From: Thermoplasmata archaeon
GTDB lineage: Archaea; Thermoplasmatota; DTKX01; VGTL01
Assembly (NCBI GenBank): GCA_038851035.1
Contig: JAWCLH010000019.1
Span: forward strand, 1 to 52,948
Length of the DNA: 52,948 bases
Reading direction: 5' to 3'
The position numbers and the translations under genes are program-made. Within the stretch, counting starts at the first letter, position 1. The number at the start of each line of letters is the position of its first letter. Below, one piece after another: positions 1,902 through 34,100 of this stretch. Below the pieces are notes generated by a model. The model ran no database searches and was not told the DNA's origin. It was given only the letters and a program-made list of their open reading frames with translations.

Positions 1902-2030
1902 CCGGGTCCGATTGGCCCCGGGCGCGGGTCCGCTGAATAATATATTTACTGCGGGGGAACGTGGGGAGCGGGGGACCGCGGGGGGCATTGTATTTTAATG
2001 GGCGATGGAAATATTTAGTTTTTTTCCGAA
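1786..2030. repeat. Direct repeat copy A: promoter plus signal-peptide block
   Basis: This 245-base stretch covers the start of the leftward beta-helix gene (first ~39 codons) and its upstream region. It matches 6921-7165, which is also 245 bases and in the same orientation. The first 65 bases or so are nearly identical; the rest is clearly related with scattered changes, including the shared blocks GGGGGGCATTGT and AAATATTTAGTTTTT. The intact gene belongs to this copy. Confidence 0.85.
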
Positions 2031-2106
2031 AAAAAAAAAATAGAATAATATAGATTACATTTATGGAGAGAGAAGCGAACTCTTCAGACTTCAATAGGAG
2101 GGATGA

Positions 2107-2400
2107 ATGACTGAAGGTGGCAAAGGCCGGATTCCCAAGACGCCGGACCTGAATATCGTGGAGCGGTTCCTGAACGCTCTCTGGGGCTCCAGTAGGGAGT
2201 GGGGTAGGACGCAGCTGGCGATGGCGGTGAGGATGAATTACAGAAGGTGCAGCATCTATATCGAGCTGCTTCAAAAAGCCGGATTATTAATAATTAAAAA
2301 GAATGAGAAAGGGCAAGACGTTATCAAAATCACAGAGCTCGGAGTAAGGGTCTATCACGCTCTTTCGGAGTGCAGTAATCTTTTCCGGAAGGGTTCTTGA
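2107..2400 (+). CDS. Small winged-helix transcription regulator
   Basis: A 97-residue protein with a predicted wHTH fold: helices over about residues 13-60, a recognition-helix region RRCSIYIELLQKAGLL and a wing with an IKKNEKGQDVIKIT hairpin. This layout is typical of small archaeal wHTH proteins of the HTH_45 type, which act as dimeric DNA-binding regulators; the family call is from memory of the pattern. The start is fixed by a strong Shine-Dalgarno AGGAGGG at 2096-2102; the ATG at 2103 is out of frame and stops at once. It is the first gene of the AT-richer island, just upstream of the palindromic array at 2474-2574, so the array may be its binding site (inference). Confidence 0.7.
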   Translation: MTEGGKGRIPKTPDLNIVERFLNALWGSSREWGRTQLAMAVRMNYRRCSIYIELLQKAGLLIIKKNEKGQDVIKITELGVRVYHALSECSNLFRKGS

Positions 2401-2473: not shown

Positions 2474-2574
2474 GATATATGTCGAAGATATGTATCGCTA
2501 GTAATTATCCCGGATACATATCCCCGGTACTTACCGAAGATAAGTATCATCGGTACTTATTCCGAATAAGTATC
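2474..2574. repeat. Four tandem imperfect palindromes, 26-base period
   Basis: Four related 22-23-base units begin at 2474, about 2501, 2526 and 2552, so the start-to-start spacing is about 26 bases. Unit 4 is a nearly perfect hairpin: arms GGTACTTATT and AATAAGTATC around CCG. Unit 3 has arms GGTACTTA and TAAGTATC around CCGAAGA. Unit 1 has arms GATATATG and ATGTATC-type sequence around TCGAAG. Unit 2 is the most degenerate. The array fills the 236-base gap between the winged-helix gene and the secreted-protein gene. It looks like a multi-site operator or a set of RNA hairpins in a leader. No spacer diversity is seen, so it is not a CRISPR. Confidence 0.8.
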
Positions 2575-2645
2575 GAAGGTGAGCGAGCTATATATTCGAG
2601 TTCGTACATTATGATTTAATTGAACGGTCTGCAGGGGTGAGAGGA

Positions 2646-3773
2646 ATGAGATGGGGGAAAATAGCGGGGGTGAGTGGAATTGTATTCATAGTGTCGCTGG
2701 CAGGAATACTATCAATAGGTGTGGGCCCCGGGGCTGATAATGGGTCTTGGCCAGCGAATCCTGGGTTTCCCGTGGATCCTTTTTGGAAAGGGAATTGGGC
2801 CTGTGTATATACACAGAATGATGTAACAACAGGTACTCATATTAATGGAATTACCATTTGGGACCTTGAATACAGGGATAATGCCAGAGGAGATATAAAT
2901 TATAATTACTATATTAAAGAATTAACCATTCCATGGATAAGTATCAAAATGCTGAATTGGAATAATGGACAGATAAAGCTTTATCCTCATGATGACAAAC
3001 CTCAGCAGGGGGGAACACCTGTCAATAAAATAATGTTTAATGGATGTCCATGTAATGGCCAAGGCAATTACAATGGTTTCAACGAGGGCAATCCAACGAC
3101 TTTTGAAGCTTGGTTCGACCTTGACTTCGATGGAGATGGATTTATTGAGTTTTGTTATCGATACCGAATGGAATTTCATGGTCAAAATGGACCACCACCG
3201 GGAAGAGCCGGCTTTATTCGGGTAATGATATCAGAGACGCTACATCCATATTATGATTTTAATGGGGATGGGGATGAGGATCCTGGTGAAGAATATTGGC
3301 ATCAAATGCCTGATGGCACGGTCGATAAAATAGATTATATTGAATATTCTTATTTAATTGATGCCGATGTTTATGATACATCAAGTAACAATATTTCATT
3401 ATGGAATGGGGTCGCATGGGCTCAACAGAATATCGAGGCAGGACCCATTGCACCGGTTCAGGGTGGTCCTAATGGCCGCATTGCGCGAATTGAAAATCCA
3501 ACGGCGATAATTCCACCTCCGCCAGCGAATCCCGTTCCAAGATATGTAAGCCTGAGAGAGACTCCAGATGGCCATACAATGTCATGGGTCTGGTGCTTGG
3601 CTGCCCATCAGAATGAATATTCACAGTATCCAACAAATTATGTGAACAATGAAAACCTTATTGATGAAGATGTTCAGCTATGGTATACAGAACGCTTTAC
3701 CGTTGGAGCCGGGCAATTTCCGCCATGGTTTCCTCAATGGGCAGAGATTCATTTATACGACTTTGAAGCATAA
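2646..3773 (+). CDS. Secreted acidic protein with Asp-rich calcium-loop-like motifs, function unknown
   Basis: The protein has 375 residues from ATG 2646. Residues 1-25 are a signal peptide or anchor (WGKIAGVSG followed by IVFIVSLAGILSIGVG). The mature part is aromatic-, Asn- and Gly-rich with two DxDxDG-like loops, DLDFDGDGFIEF and DFNGDGDEDPGEEYW, that resemble EF-hand or dockerin calcium loops, and one CPC motif. I recognise no enzymatic family. ATG 2646 is preferred over GTG 2637 because a Shine-Dalgarno GGGGTGA (2634-2640) precedes it by five bases. The codons are far more AT-rich than in most genes of the window, which suggests recent acquisition. Export to the surface is inferred from the signal peptide. 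Confidence 0.7.
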   Translation: MRWGKIAGVSGIVFIVSLAGILSIGVGPGADNGSWPANPGFPVDPFWKGNWACVYTQNDVTTGTHINGITIWDLEYRDNARGDINYNYYIKELTIPWISIKMLNWNNGQIKLYPHDDKPQQGGTPVNKIMFNGCPCNGQGNYNGFNEGNPTTFEAWFDLDFDGDGFIEFCYRYRMEFHGQNGPPPGRAGFIRVMISETLHPYYDFNGDGDEDPGEEYWHQMPDGTVDKIDYIEYSYLIDADVYDTSSNNISLWNGVAWAQQNIEAGPIAPVQGGPNGRIARIENPTAIIPPPPANPVPRYVSLRETPDGHTMSWVWCLAAHQNEYSQYPTNYVNNENLIDEDVQLWYTERFTVGAGQFPPWFPQWAEIHLYDFEA

Positions 3774-4017: not shown

Positions 4018-6861
4018 GTGAAACCAAGAGATCACTCCCAATTATTGCGTTTATTGACCATTCTTTTCATTTTCCTGCTCTCTTTAGAATCTTTGGAGGC
4101 CCTTGCACCCACATCAACTTCCCGGTCGGCCGGTCTCCGCCGTACCATCGAGGCTGAACCAAATGACCAACTCAATCAGGCAATGCCCATTTCGAGCGAA
4201 GAGATAATTGAGGGGAGTCTGCTGATAAATCCATCCTCAGACCAGACGGATTGGTATAAAATCAATGTTCCATATGAAAAAATCCTGAACGCCAGTCTCT
4301 ACCTGATCGACTATAATGAGAGCGACACCGGTGAATTTAATTTTCATCTCGGATTATATTACGGTAATTTTATTCCCTTAGATTTCGGGAATACCAGCCA
4401 AAGATGGGAATCGGCCATTTCCGTGCAGTGGTGGAACTCGAGCGCTCCACAAACGGTCTACATAAGAGTATATGTCAACACCACCTCTCAGGGTGAAATA
4501 CGTACCCAGCCCGGCAGATATTTGCTCAGTGTAACAATAAAAGACCCGGTGGTCTATACAGCAGGTGAAGTCCTCGGCAGTTTAGATACAAATGCACCTA
4601 GCATAAAAATCGTCTATAGAATGGTGAATCCTCCGGCAGAGAACCAGCAGATGAGAGCCAGGCTCAAATGCCCCGCCACAGGAATTTTCTATCTATACAT
4701 TTTTAATCAATGGATGGGGATAAATTGGTGGCTGAGGAACGCGTCATACGTTAACACAGCTGGATGTATTCAGGAGGTTCGTTTTAATGGCTGTGGTGGA
4801 GCGATCTACATATTCATAACAGCTGCGCAGGGCAATGGCACATATATTCTGAAGGTCGAATTCGATGGAGAGCCAATGGACAACAACAATGCCCCGTCCG
4901 GTGCCGTTCTGATACAGGACCCGTCCCCGCAACTCGAATTTGTGGATCAAGGCGTGGACGGTGTGGACTGGTGGAAGGTGGAGATGAGAACTCCAAAAAC
5001 CATCAGTAGTATATATCTCAGCTTCGTTCTCAATGCTTATGAATATGGAACGAGCCTGGGCCTCTCGGTTTATGATGAGGAATTGAATTTCATCACAGGT
5101 CTGACCCCGAACGTCGGGAATCAGAACCTGCTCTTGAGTGATGTGAATATCCCGCATGCCGGAACGGTTTTTATTCTCATCAGAGCGCTATATTGCTATG
5201 CGTGGGGGGAAACTAACTTCGTTCCCGGACGTGGCTGGTACAAACTTACAGTATCTCTCCCTAACGACCCGCCCCGGCTCAACGGGACCCTCCCCGAGAT
5301 TCAGATGCTCGAGGACACGAGCAACAGCGACCTCATACTGTCAAACTACTTCATGGACCCGGACGGGGACAACCTGACCTACACTCTGTTCGGCTCGGGC
5401 TACAAGACGAAGCCCGTGGTGGACCGCGTGACCGGGAAAGTAACCTTCACACCGGAGAAGAATTGGTACGGCAGGGAGACGGTGAAGTTCCAGGTGAAGG
5501 ACAGCGGCCCGGGGAACCTCATATGCTACGGCACAACCAACGTGACGGTCCTCCCTGTGAATGACCAGCCCTATCTCTCGACCCCCCAGCCCGACATCGT
5601 AATTCAGGAGCACGCCGTTGGCTACACCTCCAACCTCGCCACCATCTTCCTCGATGATGATGACCCGCCCGCCAACTTCACCTACACCTGCACCGTCCTG
5701 AGTTCCGAGACCCACCCAGCCAATATGAGCCTGCCAATGGTCTATGAGAAGGCGAGCAACTGGTACAAGTTCGGCCCGGCGGAGTTCTTCTATGGTAGCT
5801 TCCTGCTCGAGCTCACATGCACAGACGGCCACGAAGGTACAGTTCCTGCGTCGACCAGATTTTATGTTAATATCACGCATGTCAACCATCCGCCCGTGGT
5901 CAAGCCGACGATTCCCGACCCCTACACGGTCATTCTCCACGAGGGCGGTCGCGACGACCAGACAAACGTGGCCGACCTTTTCACCGACCCAGACATCATG
6001 GAGGACTACTCCGACGACGCCCTCACCTACTGCATCACGGGCCAGAAGAAGGTCACGGTCAGTATAGCGCGGGATGGGCGCATCATATTCGACGCCGGGA
6101 GCGAGGAGTATGTTCCCGGGAGCCCCTATGAGGAGAGACTAATAATGACCGCCAAGGACAGGGCAGGGCTCCGGGCGACGCTGAACATGACGGTCAGGGT
6201 GGAGCCCGAGGACGACCCCCCATACTTCACCAAGGTGACTCCTGAGGACACGAATGTTGAAATGAGCGAGAACCAGAAGAAGACCTTCAGCGTGGCCGCG
6301 AGCGATATTGATACTCCGGAGCTGAGCTACTCGTGGTATCTTGATGGTGCGAAGGACAAGACCGCCAGGGGGTTCACCTACATCTTCGCCACGGACTACA
6401 ACATGGGCGGCAGGACCTACTCGCTCAGGGTGGACGTGACCGACGGCCACACGACCATAAGCTTCGAATGGAACATCACTGTTACAGAAGTCAACAGGCC
6501 GCCCACGGCCTACATAAAGACGCCGACCAACATGTCCAGTTTCAAGAAGGGGGCCTACATCAGCTTCAGCGCCGAGGGCTCCGACGAAGATGGAGACAAC
6601 CTGACCTTTGTCTGGAGGGACCAGACGGGCGCGGAGCTCGGCAGGGGCCCCACCTTCTCGACCAACAGGCTGCCGAAGGGGACCCAGACCGTGACCCTCG
6701 AGGTCAGCGACGGGAAGAGCAGCGTGATTCAGACCGTTACCATCGTGGTCAAGGACTCGGGTACAACGGGTGGCGGGGGAGCTCCGGGTTTCGAGGGTTC
6801 GACCCTTCTGGCCGGGGCTGGCATTTCTATAATATTGTTATACAGAAAGAACCTGCCATGA
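4018..6861 (+). CDS. Large exported protein with PPC-like, cadherin/Tandem-95-like and PKD-like domains and a PGF-CTERM-like end
   Basis: The protein has 947 residues. Residues 1-28 are a signal peptide. About residues 45-180 form a pre-peptidase C-terminal-like sandwich (EAEPNDQLNQA, DQTDWYKI); a second such unit is near 285-410 (GVDGVDWWKVEM). From about 415 to 890 there are several Tandem-95/cadherin-type and PKD-like beta-sandwiches (VNDQPY, EDTSNSDLILSNYFMDPDGD, NRPPTAYI). The C-terminus is Gly-rich, then APGFEGSTLLAGAG, a hydrophobic stretch and YRKNLP, which fits the PGF-CTERM signal processed by archaeosortases. Base composition shifts within the gene: the first ~1.25 kb is AT-rich, the rest GC-rich, suggesting a chimera. 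The start is a GTG directly after the 42-residue ORF. Confidence 0.75.
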   Translation: MKPRDHSQLLRLLTILFIFLLSLESLEALAPTSTSRSAGLRRTIEAEPNDQLNQAMPISSEEIIEGSLLINPSSDQTDWYKINVPYEKILNASLYLIDYNESDTGEFNFHLGLYYGNFIPLDFGNTSQRWESAISVQWWNSSAPQTVYIRVYVNTTSQGEIRTQPGRYLLSVTIKDPVVYTAGEVLGSLDTNAPSIKIVYRMVNPPAENQQMRARLKCPATGIFYLYIFNQWMGINWWLRNASYVNTAGCIQEVRFNGCGGAIYIFITAAQGNGTYILKVEFDGEPMDNNNAPSGAVLIQDPSPQLEFVDQGVDGVDWWKVEMRTPKTISSIYLSFVLNAYEYGTSLGLSVYDEELNFITGLTPNVGNQNLLLSDVNIPHAGTVFILIRALYCYAWGETNFVPGRGWYKLTVSLPNDPPRLNGTLPEIQMLEDTSNSDLILSNYFMDPDGDNLTYTLFGSGYKTKPVVDRVTGKVTFTPEKNWYGRETVKFQVKDSGPGNLICYGTTNVTVLPVNDQPYLSTPQPDIVIQEHAVGYTSNLATIFLDDDDPPANFTYTCTVLSSETHPANMSLPMVYEKASNWYKFGPAEFFYGSFLLELTCTDGHEGTVPASTRFYVNITHVNHPPVVKPTIPDPYTVILHEGGRDDQTNVADLFTDPDIMEDYSDDALTYCITGQKKVTVSIARDGRIIFDAGSEEYVPGSPYEERLIMTAKDRAGLRATLNMTVRVEPEDDPPYFTKVTPEDTNVEMSENQKKTFSVAASDIDTPELSYSWYLDGAKDKTARGFTYIFATDYNMGGRTYSLRVDVTDGHTTISFEWNITVTEVNRPPTAYIKTPTNMSSFKKGAYISFSAEGSDEDGDNLTFVWRDQTGAELGRGPTFSTNRLPKGTQTVTLEVSDGKSSVIQTVTIVVKDSGTTGGGGAPGFEGSTLLAGAGISIILLYRKNLP

Positions 6862-10300: not shown

Positions 10301-11908
10301 CGCTTCGACACGCCCGGTTTCCCGGATGGCGTCATTGTTACAGGGGCGTGGCTCCGGCTTATGCCGGCGGATACGGACCCGGCGCTTTCCAGCAGCCTCT
10401 TCTCCGTCGAGCTCCTCTCGTCCGAGGCCCTCGGGCTCTTCGACGGCGTGAGGCGCCCGACTTGCTCGGAGCTAAAACAGGCCGTAGCGGAGGCCGAGGT
10501 CGGGAGGAGCTTCGGCGCGGGGGCGCTGAGGGCTGGCGAGTGGCTCACGCTGGAGCTCGGCGAGCCCCTGCGCAGGCTCATTTGCAGGCAGGCGGTGGAG
10601 GGCGGCGTGTGCATCAGAATCAGGGGGCCCGCGGCGGGCTCGACGAGCTACATCGAGTTCCTCACTGGAGCGTCCGGAGGAATGGAATGGGCCGCGCCCC
10701 AGCTCGTTCTCGACCTCGACCGACCCCCGAGGGTCCGGCCCTTCGCACCCCGCGCCCTCTCGATGACTGAGGACGTGCCGGACTCAACCTCCCTGAGCCT
10801 CCTGAAGGTCTTCGAGGACGAGGGGCCGATGAGCTTCTCCAGCCCGACCCATGGAGAGGGCTCGGGCGCGGACGTGACCGTCAAAATATCCCCAGATGGA
10901 AACGTGACCCTGACCCCGAGGCAGGACTGGAACGGAGTTGACTCCGTGGACTTCCGCGCCACGGACGCCTCCGGCCTGAGCACGGACCACTTCGTCACAG
11001 TCACCGTCAGACCGGTCAACGACCCGCCGGTGATAGTTTCCGTGGGCGGGAGGGCGGCGGAGGACGGGATGGTTTTCGAGGTGAGTCAGGGCGAGGCCTT
11101 CGCCGCCGGCGTGCGAGCCGAAGACCCCGACATCAAATTCGAGGGAGACGAGCTCTACTTCTCCACCAACGATTCTCTCGTCAGATTCACCTCGCCGCGC
11201 AGCGACACCCTCTCCTTCACGCCGGGCAACGGTGACGTCGGGACCAGGCTCGTCAGGGTCGTGGTCAGGGACGGCCAGGCGCAGGCGGCGCTGAATCTGA
11301 GCTTCAGAATTCTCAATGTAAACGACCCGCCATCCGCCCTCATCGACTCGCCCTACCCCGGCGGGTGGTACGACAACGAGACCCCGATAACCTTCTCGGC
11401 CTACGGCACCACAGACCCGGATATCCGGTGGGGCGACACCCTCAACTACACTTGGGAGTCGAACCTGTCGGGACTGATCGGCCACGGAATCGAGCTCGAG
11501 GCCCTCCTTCCCCCGGGAGCGCATCTTGTCACGCTGACGGTTATCGATAAGGCGGGCGCCTTGAGCCAGGCCAGCGTGGAAATCGAAGTTGCCGCCATTC
11601 AGCCACCGCCCCCTCCTCCGCCGCCCCCTCCTCCGCCTCATTTAATCAATCAGACCAACACCTCCTCTGGAGAGCTCCCGCTCAGGCTCGGCGCGGTGGC
11701 TCTGGTCATCTCAGGCCTCATCGGTTTCTGGTACCTGCTGACTCCCAAGCGGCCTTCCGGCCGCGGCCCGGCCCCGAAAAAACCGCCCGCCGACGCTGGC
11801 GCTCCGGCGAGGAGGCGGCCCCCGTTCCGCCCCGCCCCCCACCGAGAGGAGCGCGGCGGTGAGAAACAGGAGCCGGAACCGGGGGTCGAGGTTGTCGAGA
11901 GGCGCTGA
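7379..11908 (+). CDS. Membrane-anchored S8 subtilisin-like protease with beta-sandwich and DNRLRE-like domains
   Basis: The protein has 1509 residues. Residues 1-23 are a signal peptide. The S8 catalytic domain spans about 275-600 with the triad Asp300 (ADSGIDYDH), His342 (GHGTHVAG) and Ser520 (HGTSMATPVAGG). The preceding ~250 residues look like a propeptide or inhibitor-like N-domain. A jelly-roll domain follows (VVLSWADWPG, NDLNLEV), then an Fn3-like unit (GLRPGTAYTLDL), a DNRLRE-like domain (about 935-1105), Tandem-95/cadherin-like units (EDVPDSTSLSLLKVFEDE, VNDPPV) and a PKD-like unit. A proline run (about 1411-1422) and one membrane helix (about 1433-1454) precede a 55-residue basic cytoplasmic tail. 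It likely cleaves extracellular protein at the cell surface. It is larger than ordinary subtilases because of the C-terminal modules. Confidence 0.9.
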   Translation: MRPLSILLLVAALSAQPLFSASAGPPEAGREVERAYICVMAGERELRHLGLRADEVYASFVTMEASDGDRAVLREAGIHFFAIHGRDDVVLPGAEFTLGPSELRGKGLGELRLEGDGPFYLVLKLKGPVKASWLSQIRNAGVEILEALSHYNFIIRAERDEVERLASMPFVRWLGELRPEHKLLHPLPGDDFVRFEVAFFREARNDFARALEMVQASGGRAVELDTGTEWWLSAMLEAPRETAIEILGLPGLWALEPWDPVEPRNDVARWVVQSFDNETIPTPYWDAGLTGQGIIIGLADSGIDYDHICFRNNTSEQGVPGPTHRKIVCYNTSVDDWDQLGHGTHVAGTLAGDSIESPGRYDTYDGIAYGARIAFYDIVDANGSWAPPLIRGILGDAYAHGATSHSDSWGDNRREYSLRAQRIDQFLWDHPDFLVFVAAGNSGPEPGSVLEPATAKNIVAVGAAVNGNTTDLASFSAHGPTPQGLIAPTLVAPGQSLVSASSDSTRYSMNSGYRTMHGTSMATPVAGGAGAIVEQYFRDGFYPGGVRGSSAGFMPSGQLRRAVLVLSCWDQLGGKYVEASAPDFSQGWGKIRLLNALYLEGDGRTHRLWVQDYYNESRINDGLATGETRTHHIGVNSSSPLRVVLSWADWPGAGLVNDLNLEVTAPDGRVYRGNQIVNGSSVPSEGADAVNTIEAVFLPSPIPGHYAINVTALSVGAGGRQRYALAATGGLFDPSIGELALDKERVPPEASLRVRLIDRDLAGLGSARVYASSGTESAPEALELVELGRSGSFEGTLRIAPGAPAADGVLQVSDGDTVMVEYRDASPPGQCWAGALVDGSPPRLLSFELTNLTNSSALLRVETDEVSSAIAICRSDGGVLEAPGPESSFRHSILIDGLRPGTAYTLDLELEDVCGNRVLQDFNGSHLTFRTHDLTFRPMPGMAGWAQEGESGGRFAEERISVGIYEGWLRLGGVRFDTPGFPDGVIVTGAWLRLMPADTDPALSSSLFSVELLSSEALGLFDGVRRPTCSELKQAVAEAEVGRSFGAGALRAGEWLTLELGEPLRRLICRQAVEGGVCIRIRGPAAGSTSYIEFLTGASGGMEWAAPQLVLDLDRPPRVRPFAPRALSMTEDVPDSTSLSLLKVFEDEGPMSFSSPTHGEGSGADVTVKISPDGNVTLTPRQDWNGVDSVDFRATDASGLSTDHFVTVTVRPVNDPPVIVSVGGRAAEDGMVFEVSQGEAFAAGVRAEDPDIKFEGDELYFSTNDSLVRFTSPRSDTLSFTPGNGDVGTRLVRVVVRDGQAQAALNLSFRILNVNDPPSALIDSPYPGGWYDNETPITFSAYGTTDPDIRWGDTLNYTWESNLSGLIGHGIELEALLPPGAHLVTLTVIDKAGALSQASVEIEVAAIQPPPPPPPPPPPPHLINQTNTSSGELPLRLGAVALVISGLIGFWYLLTPKRPSGRGPAPKKPPADAGAPARRRPPFRPAPHREERGGEKQEPEPGVEVVERR

Positions 11909-31141: not shown

Positions 31142-34100
31142 ATGGCAGGGGACCCGGAGAAAAAGAAGGGGTTGGTCCGCGATTTCAAGGCTCGTTGGAG
31201 CCGTGTCTCCAGAGTTGACATTGGCAAGTGCCCCTTCTGCGGTAACCCACTCAAGGACGAAATTGCCCCCTGCAGTCTGTGCGGAGGCTCCAGAGAGGGC
31301 GTTTCGGGCATCACACGCCCTCCAGGCCCCGCCCCCGTGCCCCCTCCCCCTGAGCCCCTACCGGAGCCGGTGGGAGAGGAGCTTGAGATAAAGAAAGACG
31401 AGAGGGACTGGAAGGCCTGGATAGTGCAAGGTGACATCTATTACAACTCCGGTCATCTGCAAAAAGCCCTTGAGGCCTACGACCGCTCCCTCTCCATCCG
31501 CCCCTCTTTCGAAGCCCTGAACAACAAGGGTCTGGTACTGCATCGAGAGGGCAGGCACGCCGAGGCTCTGGAGTGCTTTGAGAAGGCCGTGGAGCTCAAC
31601 CCGGACGATGAGAACCTTTGGTATCACAGGGGCAACGTCCTTCGCGAGCTCGGACGGCACACCGAGGCGATGGACTCCTACGACCGGGCGATATCCCTGA
31701 AGCCCAACTTCGAGAGGGCCTGGGCGGCGGCGGGGCACGCCCTACTGGCGATGGGCCGGAACGAGGAGGCAATTATTTGCTTCGAGTCGGCGCTGAGAAT
31801 TCAGCTCGATAATGAGCACACCTGGCACGCGATAGGCAGCGCCCTCCTCCGCATGAAGAGATACGACGAGGCCGAGACTGCCCTCGCCAAGGCTGTCGAG
31901 ATACGGCCCGACTACTGGGAGGCCTGGTATGAAAGGGCCGCACTCTCGCTCGAGAGGGGACGTTTCCAAGAGGCCATCGAGTTTCTCAGAAAGGTCACGG
32001 AGCACAACCCCCGCCACTGGCGGTCCTGGCTCGAGCTCGGTGCCCTTCTCATGGATAAGGGCGATGAGAGGGAGGCGCTACTATGCTACTCAAAGGCCTC
32101 AGAGAACAGCGCCGGGAGATGGGAGGTCTGGAGGGCGCTCGGGCAATGCTACCTCGGGATGAAGAGATATCAGGAGGCCTCCGCAGCTTTTACTAAAGCC
32201 ACGGAACTCAACCCGGCCAACTCCGCCCTTCTGCAGGAGGCGGCGGAGGCGCACTACCTCGCCGGCAGGCCCGAGCTCACGGTTCAGGCGGCGGAGAAAG
32301 CTCTCGCTCTTGGTGAGACCTCCCAGGCGCTGCTGACGCTCGGCACTGCCTTCCTCCGCACCGGAAGATTTCGGGAGGCGCTGGAGCGTCTCGATAAGGC
32401 CGCCTCTCTCGATGCCGGCTCCCCAAGGGTCTGGCTCGAGAAGGCGAACGCCCATAAAATGCTCGGGGAGCGCGATAAGGCCCTCGAGGCCTGCGAGAGG
32501 GCGCTTTCGCTCAACCCTAGATATGAGAGGGCTCTGGGCCTGCGCTCGGAGATTCTCTTCGAAATGGGCCGCTGGAGGGAGGCACTGGAGGCGGCGGACG
32601 CCGCCCTCGCCCTCAGACCATCTCTGGAAAAGCTCGAGAGAATCGCCGAGCTGCGCGAGATGCTGATCATCGCGGAGGCAGAGAAGTGGAGGAGAGAGGC
32701 TCCCTTACCCGAGGCCGCGCCCCTGACGCCAGAGGAGCTGGTCAGGCTCGGCCTCGAAGCCGGCGCTCCCGCGGTCTCCCCGCCCCCGCCGGTCGAGGTC
32801 CAGCCCCCGGAGGCGCTCCCACCGGAAGAGCTGGTGGCAGTGGAGGCGGAAGCCTTGCCCGAGGCCGTGCCGGAGCTCCGCGAAGGTCTGGAGACGGAGG
32901 AGCCCGCTGTCCCCGGGCTTCAGACGGAGTCGCTTGCGGCAGTGCCCGCCAAGGGAGAGCCAGAAGGAGCCGGGGCCCCGGTGGCCGAGGTGGGTAGGGA
33001 GGTGGAGGAACCCGGCCCCATCGAATTCGAGCTAGTTGAGAGGCCGCTGGTCTCTCGTGATGTCGCGCGGCCTCCGGCCAGACGTCCATCGATGAGGGAG
33101 AAGGGCCTGACAAATGGCCTTGGGCTGACCAACGGCCGTGTTCCGGGAGTCGGAATCGGAGCGGGGCGCAGCCTGAGCAACGGAAGGAGCGGCATAAACG
33201 GCCGCGGGCTGACGAATGGGCGCGGCATCATTAATGGCCGTGGCGTCATCAATGGAAGAGGCGCGATAAACGGCCGCGGCCTCATCAACGGGAAGGGCAT
33301 AATCAACGGGAGAGGGCCTTCGGGCCGCCAGGGCCTCATCAACGGAGTTCCACCAGAGGCCCCGGGTCCCTACGCAGCTCGTCTCCGGAGTAGGAGGGCC
33401 CGGAGAAACATGAGGCTGGCCGCGACTGTGCTCGCCGCGGCTGCGCTCATCCTCGCCCTCCCCTTCGCCGCCATGATTCTGATGAGGCCAGTGGGAATAG
33501 AAATCAATGGCGATTTCTCCGACTGGCTCGGCATCCCGTCCCTTCCCGACAGCTTCGAGGACATGGTCGCCGAGCCGCGGCTCAACATCCTGAACGTGAG
33601 TACTGTTGTGGAGCTGGGCAGAGCCTTTTTCCGAGTGGATGTCGTGGGCAGAATTCTCGATGGGCCTCCGGACGGTGTGGACGTTCTGCGAGTCTTCATA
33701 GACGCCGATTCTTCATCGCGCACCGGCTACTTGATAGCGGGCATCGGCGCCGACAGACTCATCGAGGCCTGGGGGTACAACAACACCGTCCGCGGAACCG
33801 AGCTGCGGGCCTTCAACGCCAGCCGCCCCAGGCTCGACTGGAATGGCTGGAACCTTATCGGGAGCGCTAGCGCCGCCGCGAGGGGCCGCAGCGCCGAGCT
33901 CGGGGCGGCCCTCTCGGACCTAGGCCTCATCGAGGGCAGGACCTATCTGTGTGTTGCTGAACTGGACGACGGGAAGGGCCATAGGGATGTCTCGGACCTC
34001 GTGCTCGGGAGCGAGGGAGGAGCGCTTTTAGTCGAACAGAGTGGACTCGTGCCGGAGGTCGTGAACTCGACCTGCGAGCCCCTGCCGATTCTGAGGGCCA

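Follow-up and report, generated by a model that had tools for sequence, protein, structure and literature searches.

Array and Neighboring Genes

The stretch of DNA analyzed here (the window, 52,948 nucleotides) is contig C19 of a 2.69 Mb archaeal assembly of 50 contigs. Near its start, a gene for a 97-aa winged-helix (wHTH) protein (2107..2400, + strand) is followed by an array of repeats (2474-2574) and by the gene for a 375-aa secreted protein (2646..3773, + strand). The wHTH protein, the proposed ligand of the array, was assigned to the Pfam family HTH_45 (PF14947, E 3.4e-6; 27.4 bits against a curated cut-off of 25.5), and no Fur match was obtained for it in Pfam. The secreted protein, the proposed target, has an N-terminal signal-like sequence and no Pfam match. 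A gene for a large secreted repeat protein (4018..6861, + strand; Big_9, cadherin-like, and PKD domains in Pfam) with a C-terminal membrane-like segment comes next, and it is possibly the second gene of the operon, yet a TATA-like sequence of its own was seen upstream.

Four inverted repeats of 23 bases each (2474-2496, 2500-2522, 2526-2548, and 2552-2574) follow one another at a step of exactly 26 bases, as the initial annotation had described, and the most regular of them, GGTACTTATT-CCG-AATAAGTATC, has the 10-base arms and CCG loop that were claimed for it, with one mismatched pair. The spacing is real, but 26 bases is not the basic unit. We found a finer period of 13 within the array, which consists of eight near-palindromic 10-mers of the pattern RRTANNTAYY (2474-2483, 2487-2496, 2500-2509, 2513-2522, 2526-2535, 2539-2548, 2552-2561, and 2565-2574; no strand assigned). 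In order they read GATATATGTC, GATATGTATC, AGTAATTATC, GATACATATC, GGTACTTACC, GATAAGTATC, GGTACTTATT, and AATAAGTATC, with 3 free bases as spacer after each. Each 26-base palindrome is two adjacent 10-mer units read jointly. The central bases of the units partly alternate in orientation in the window array and in its duplicate on contig C35, and less regularly on C44, so the 26-base impression is stronger at these loci. A basic period of 26 was rejected because lag 13 was about equally strong everywhere and the arrays of a sister genome (see below) had no inverted alternation. The array was also not accepted as a set of multiple TBP sites, since units like AATACGTATT make poor TATA boxes. Elsewhere in the window, a period-18 repeat (33197-33253) lies within a long ORF and is probably a coding repeat.

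In a logo of 30 units from five loci, which is somewhat circular because only units matching at least 9 of 10 pattern positions were taken in, positions 3, 4, and 7 were invariably T, A, and T, and position 8 was A in 29 units. Purines occupied positions 1-2 and pyrimidines positions 9-10; the spacer and the two bases at the center were nearly uninformative.

Recurrence of the Array

The pattern of four units with at most 3 mismatches had 5 matches in the window versus 0 in 100 dinucleotide shuffles. The lag-13 score of the window intergenic region was reached at lag 13 by 0 of 1000 shuffles, and by 4 of 1000 when every lag between 7 and 30 was admitted; at lag 13, none of 1000 intergenic shuffles matched the score of any of the seven arrays considered in this study. 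The initial annotation had proposed a genome search for the unit, and this search was positive. With at most 3 mismatches allowed, the four-unit pattern occurred at only five places in the genome (C19, C35, C44, C17, and C32; reversed control, 0), a count of the arrays that fit this unit pattern, from which arrays with quite different unit letters could have escaped.

Outside this genome, no match with at most 1 mismatch was found in the set of 389 genomes of the phylum, and a DNA search with the array in 96 relatives yielded nothing beyond the genome itself. Contigs of 84,980 species contained 34 stretches with the four-unit pattern and viral contigs contained 6, mostly runs of near-identical copies (neighborhoods were examined for two). 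About a quarter of the 34 were runs of near-identical 13-base repeats in Methanosarcinaceae contigs (L039, L050, L059, L062, L066, and others). An acidobacterial contig (L036, 1764-1851) carries an array with a 13-base period whose AGTATATACT units vary; despite this variety it was set aside as a counterpart because a transposase-like gene adjoins it.

One other genome of the same family (G001), belonging to a sister genus, was compared, so that the comparison rests on two genomes, both with fragmented assemblies. It contains two arrays with the geometry of the window array and different unit letters, each preceded by a wHTH gene and followed by a TATA box and then a secreted-protein gene. The cassette on contig C149 comprises the wHTH gene, units of the GATGCTCATC type, GGTGAGCCAG and GAATATATC, and then a gene for a 353-aa secreted protein; that on C28 comprises the wHTH gene, six units of the RNTACTTAYY type (one imperfect, all in the same orientation), CTATATCA, and the gene for a close paralog of the 353-aa protein. 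C149 was reached via its wHTH and C28 via the array pattern (one control match was also found in G001), so the association of array and wHTH emerged whichever of the two was the starting point. An identical overlap of 127 bases is shared by the contigs C149 and C28, which are probably adjacent. From just past the TATA box onward the two cassettes are 83% identical, and nothing aligns in the array or the wHTH. In the C149 wHTH gene, a TAA interrupts the reading frame close to the N-terminus (L014, ~1490-1510); translation may begin at a later GTG, or the gene may be broken.

Promoter Geometry and Downstream Genes

In the window's own genome, each of the five arrays immediately precedes the promoter region of a gene for a secreted protein. 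The array recurs across this genome and in a sister genus, always at the same place before a promoter. In the window, a putative TATA box, CTATATAT (2588..2595, + strand), begins 14 bases past the last unit, and like spacing was seen at the other arrays: the last unit ends about 14-15 bases before a TATA-like box in this genome and 13-15 bases before one over all seven arrays, with boxes read from the sequence and that of C32, ATTAATTG, a weak match. Between them, GGTGAGCGAG (2578..2587, + strand) continues the 13-base register as a degenerate ninth slot, which abuts the TATA box at the expected place of the BRE. This slot between the last unit and the TATA box, GAAGGTGAGCGAG in C19, is nearly identical in C35 and C44, and reads GGTGAGCCAG in the sister cassette C149. 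The distance from the last unit to the ATG is 55-71 bases at the five loci of the genome, and a purine-rich GGTG- or GGTA-type site precedes the ATG at all five. In the window, this ribosome-binding site, GGGGTGAG, and a likely ATG start at 2646 were read from the sequence (2634..2648, + strand). A scan for sigma-70 promoters and terminators, designed for non-archaeal signals, stayed at background level. TBP genes were found in the genome.

A signal-like N-terminus was present on the product of the gene after the array at 5 of 5 loci. The genes behind the C19, C35, and C32 arrays encode one protein family (28-30% identity), and different secreted proteins are encoded behind C44 and C17. At C19, C44, C17, and C32, the next product is a large secreted repeat protein, in most cases with a C-terminal membrane-like segment. 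The secreted-protein genes of C44 and C17 seem to be broken by stops or frameshifts.

Linkage to a wHTH Family

A profile built from the three wHTHs of the genome was run against 974 ORFs of five array-bearing loci, and four matches were obtained: C149 (E 2.8e-5), C32 (1.3e-4), C28 (6.7e-4), and a truncated ORF at the contig end of C17 that stayed below threshold (0.35). The wHTH gene is at most 300 bases from the array at C19, C35, C28, and C149, and also at C17 if the truncated ORF is counted, and about 5 kb from it at C32. No such gene was found in the 13-kb contig C44, which ends 430 bases from the array. With the truncated C17 gene counted, 6 of 7 arrays in two genera are therefore linked to this wHTH family. 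The units of C44 are identical to those of C19, so the C19 or C35 paralog could serve C44 in trans. The unit sequence also appears to follow the wHTH subfamily, which is suggestive although the cases are few. In the window's genome, the units are GATAC[A/T]TATC-like with the group of wHTHs that are 72-80% identical, AATACGTATT at C32, and RATATATATY at C17; in the sister genome, they are GATGCTCATC and RATACTTAYC.

The window wHTH has two paralogs in its genome (80% and 73% identity), of which C35a fell slightly under the PF14947 cut-off in a genome scan. The third member (C35:20018; L007, 11519-11812) adjoins an ABC transporter and has no array downstream. A likely promoter of the wHTH gene, ATATTTAGTTTTTTTCCGAAAAAAAAAAAATAGAATAATATAG (2009..2055, + strand), was read by eye and is similar in the three paralogs. 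They share an upstream element of the form ATATTTAGT-T-run-CCGAAAAAAA, a variant of it in the third (window 2009-2055; L007 ~6517-6560 and ~11430-11465), possibly a promoter or an autoregulatory site. No relatives of the wHTH were found in genome contigs and viral contigs, and more distant relatives within the phylum (L009-L013 and L015) had no 13-base array nearby. The predicted structure, a low-confidence model (mean pLDDT 63), consists of helices at 15-29 and 33-57, a hairpin at 61-75, and a helix at 77-95. A Foldseek search with this model gave no match under E 0.001. In the PDB, a weak match to Sso10a-2 (4hw0, E 0.67) was obtained, and the model has a weak structural likeness to AspA, among many wHTH folds.

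Interpretation of the Array

Based on these distributions, we propose, with a probability of roughly 0.6, that the array serves as a multi-site operator on which copies of the neighboring wHTH of the HTH_45 type bind next to one another, most likely with an activating effect. The binding, its cooperativity, and the preference for activation over repression are what we infer from sequence and position. The initial annotation had already offered a cooperative operator for the adjacent regulator as a candidate, and the recurrence of arrays of the same geometry beside this wHTH family in two genera supports it well. The nearly invariant TA..TA of the units and the position of all five arrays before secreted-protein genes count in its favor. 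Counting against it are the C44 array without a linked wHTH, the C32 wHTH at 5 kb, the arrayless paralog C35:20018, the in-frame TAA of the C149 wHTH, and the low confidence of the wHTH model; the half-sites are also only 6-7 bases apart, which is tighter than usual for a single wHTH dimer.

Under the operator hypothesis, each 10-mer RRTANNTAYY would be held by a symmetric dimer, or by two monomers, of the wHTH encoded upstream or of a paralog. Neighboring copies would stack every 13 bases, turning ~86 degrees per step and thus winding around the helix, of which about five turns are completed in four steps. Neighbors had earlier been supposed to face opposite sides of the DNA, and this does not hold as a simple alternation, given the turn per step and the single orientation of the sister arrays. 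The filled array, reaching to within ~14 bases of the TATA box, would recruit or stabilize TBP/TFB, and the operon for the secreted or surface protein would be switched on. Each wHTH subfamily, with a unit sequence of its own, would then provide a private regulator for a different surface operon.

The same array and ligand might instead repress, with the stacked protein blocking TBP/TFB or spreading until a signal releases it. The last unit and the degenerate slot GGTGAGCGAG do extend to the BRE, and a protein spreading from so dense an array could extend over the TATA box. In archaea, however, repressors usually bind across the TATA box or the start site, and here every intact unit stops short of the TATA box on its upstream side. 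The usual position of an archaeal activator site is just ahead of the BRE or in part across it (PMC7408454), and all seven arrays, with the C32 box being weak, are in that place. Because the arrays end where activator sites usually sit, we prefer activation and consider repression unlikely.

Three further explanations concern the ligand or the nature of the array. Ribbon-helix-helix proteins typically bind short palindromes in tandem, and 10-base palindromes at a 13-base pitch would suit a MetJ-like protein, so the array could serve such an unlinked regulator with the wHTH gene as a mere passenger. The C44 array would fit this idea, but the linkage of 6 of 7 arrays in two genera to one wHTH family (counting the truncated C17 gene), together with the joint divergence of array sequence and wHTH in the sister genome, makes it improbable. 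The initial annotation had further considered a multi-hairpin RNA leader and a nucleation site for a DNA-coating protein, and both are now disfavored. The window array folds well as RNA (z -4.3), yet at every locus the array is followed by a TATA-like box (a weak one at C32), and no Rfam family was found in a scan of the array, which gave one match at chance level. The sister arrays, identical in geometry and with units in one orientation, do not keep the pairing and fold weakly (-7.8 and -4.6 kcal/mol); the hairpins are therefore probably a by-product of near-palindromic units, and a leader that controls the secreted gene is very improbable. A site for a chromatin or partition protein would accord with the weak resemblances of the wHTH to Sso10a-2 and AspA, but we regard it as equally remote, because the five arrays share one promoter position before secreted-protein genes and the pattern was found nowhere else in the genome.

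Comparison with Known Systems

Operator arrays that are bound cooperatively are already known, and so are local regulators of surface operons. The met boxes of MetJ are tandem short palindromes of variable copy number that are bound cooperatively; they differ from the present units in having 8 bases without spacers, a ribbon-helix-helix protein, and a bacterial host. PapB-type local regulators of fimbrial adhesin operons bind as oligomers to repeats upstream of the promoter, and their gene adjoins the surface-protein operon as it does here, although the protein is unrelated and bacterial and the repeats are AT-rich and of 9 bases. In Fur boxes, the winged-helix protein Fur binds arrayed GATAAT hexamers, of which several copies are needed (PMC7536154), and the window array has in common with them dense GATA/TATC-like half-sites 6-7 bases apart. 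The 6-1-6 or 7-1-7 arrangement of GATAAT was not found here, where RRTANNTAYY units stand at a 13-base pitch. The present arrays also differ in the archaeal promoter, the HTH_45 protein without the Fur metal domain, the strictness of the pitch, the number of units (up to eight), and unit letters that vary between cassettes. BldC and RdfS, small proteins of the wHTH type, align along tandem sites on DNA (PMC5859096, PMC11963761), and the stacking proposed for our wHTH would resemble theirs in its side-by-side arrangement. The units of BldC are asymmetric direct repeats stepped at about one helical turn, in contrast to near-palindromic units with a 13-base step. The archaeal Sso10a/HTH_45 proteins are small, like the window wHTH, and have a long C-terminal helix that the wHTH may share, judging from its low-confidence model; in sequence the match is weak. 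Filaments are formed on DNA by Sso10a2, and Sso10a is regarded as a chromatin protein of general function (PMC4941522), whereas the linkage to specific arrays seen here points to sequence-specific regulation.

A search of open-licence papers gave no description of this cassette of wHTH, array, and secreted-protein gene. To our knowledge, few archaeal regulators have known binding sites beyond model species. In the present case, a candidate site, its probable protein, the arrangement at the promoter, and several naturally varied pairs all emerge from the sequence alone, and with them a code relating recognition helix to unit becomes directly testable. We tentatively raise the possibility, which may well prove wrong, that private wHTH-array pairs diverging together are mutually insulated switches for archaeal surface-protein operons, possibly used one at a time. 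If the pairs were insulated from one another, they would illustrate how an archaeon can gain new surface proteins together with new regulators, and they could act as orthogonal switches.

Three more paralogs of the secreted-protein family in the window's genome, on C3, C5, and C32 (L118, L119, and L120), have no 13-base array. Two of them look decayed, that on C3 (L118) with internal stops and that on C32 (L120) with a short partial match. Upstream of these paralogs lies a 23-base direct-repeat array with TTAAGYC motifs (L118 2591-2643, - strand; L119 1354-1383; L120 1220-1249), which forms a second array class.
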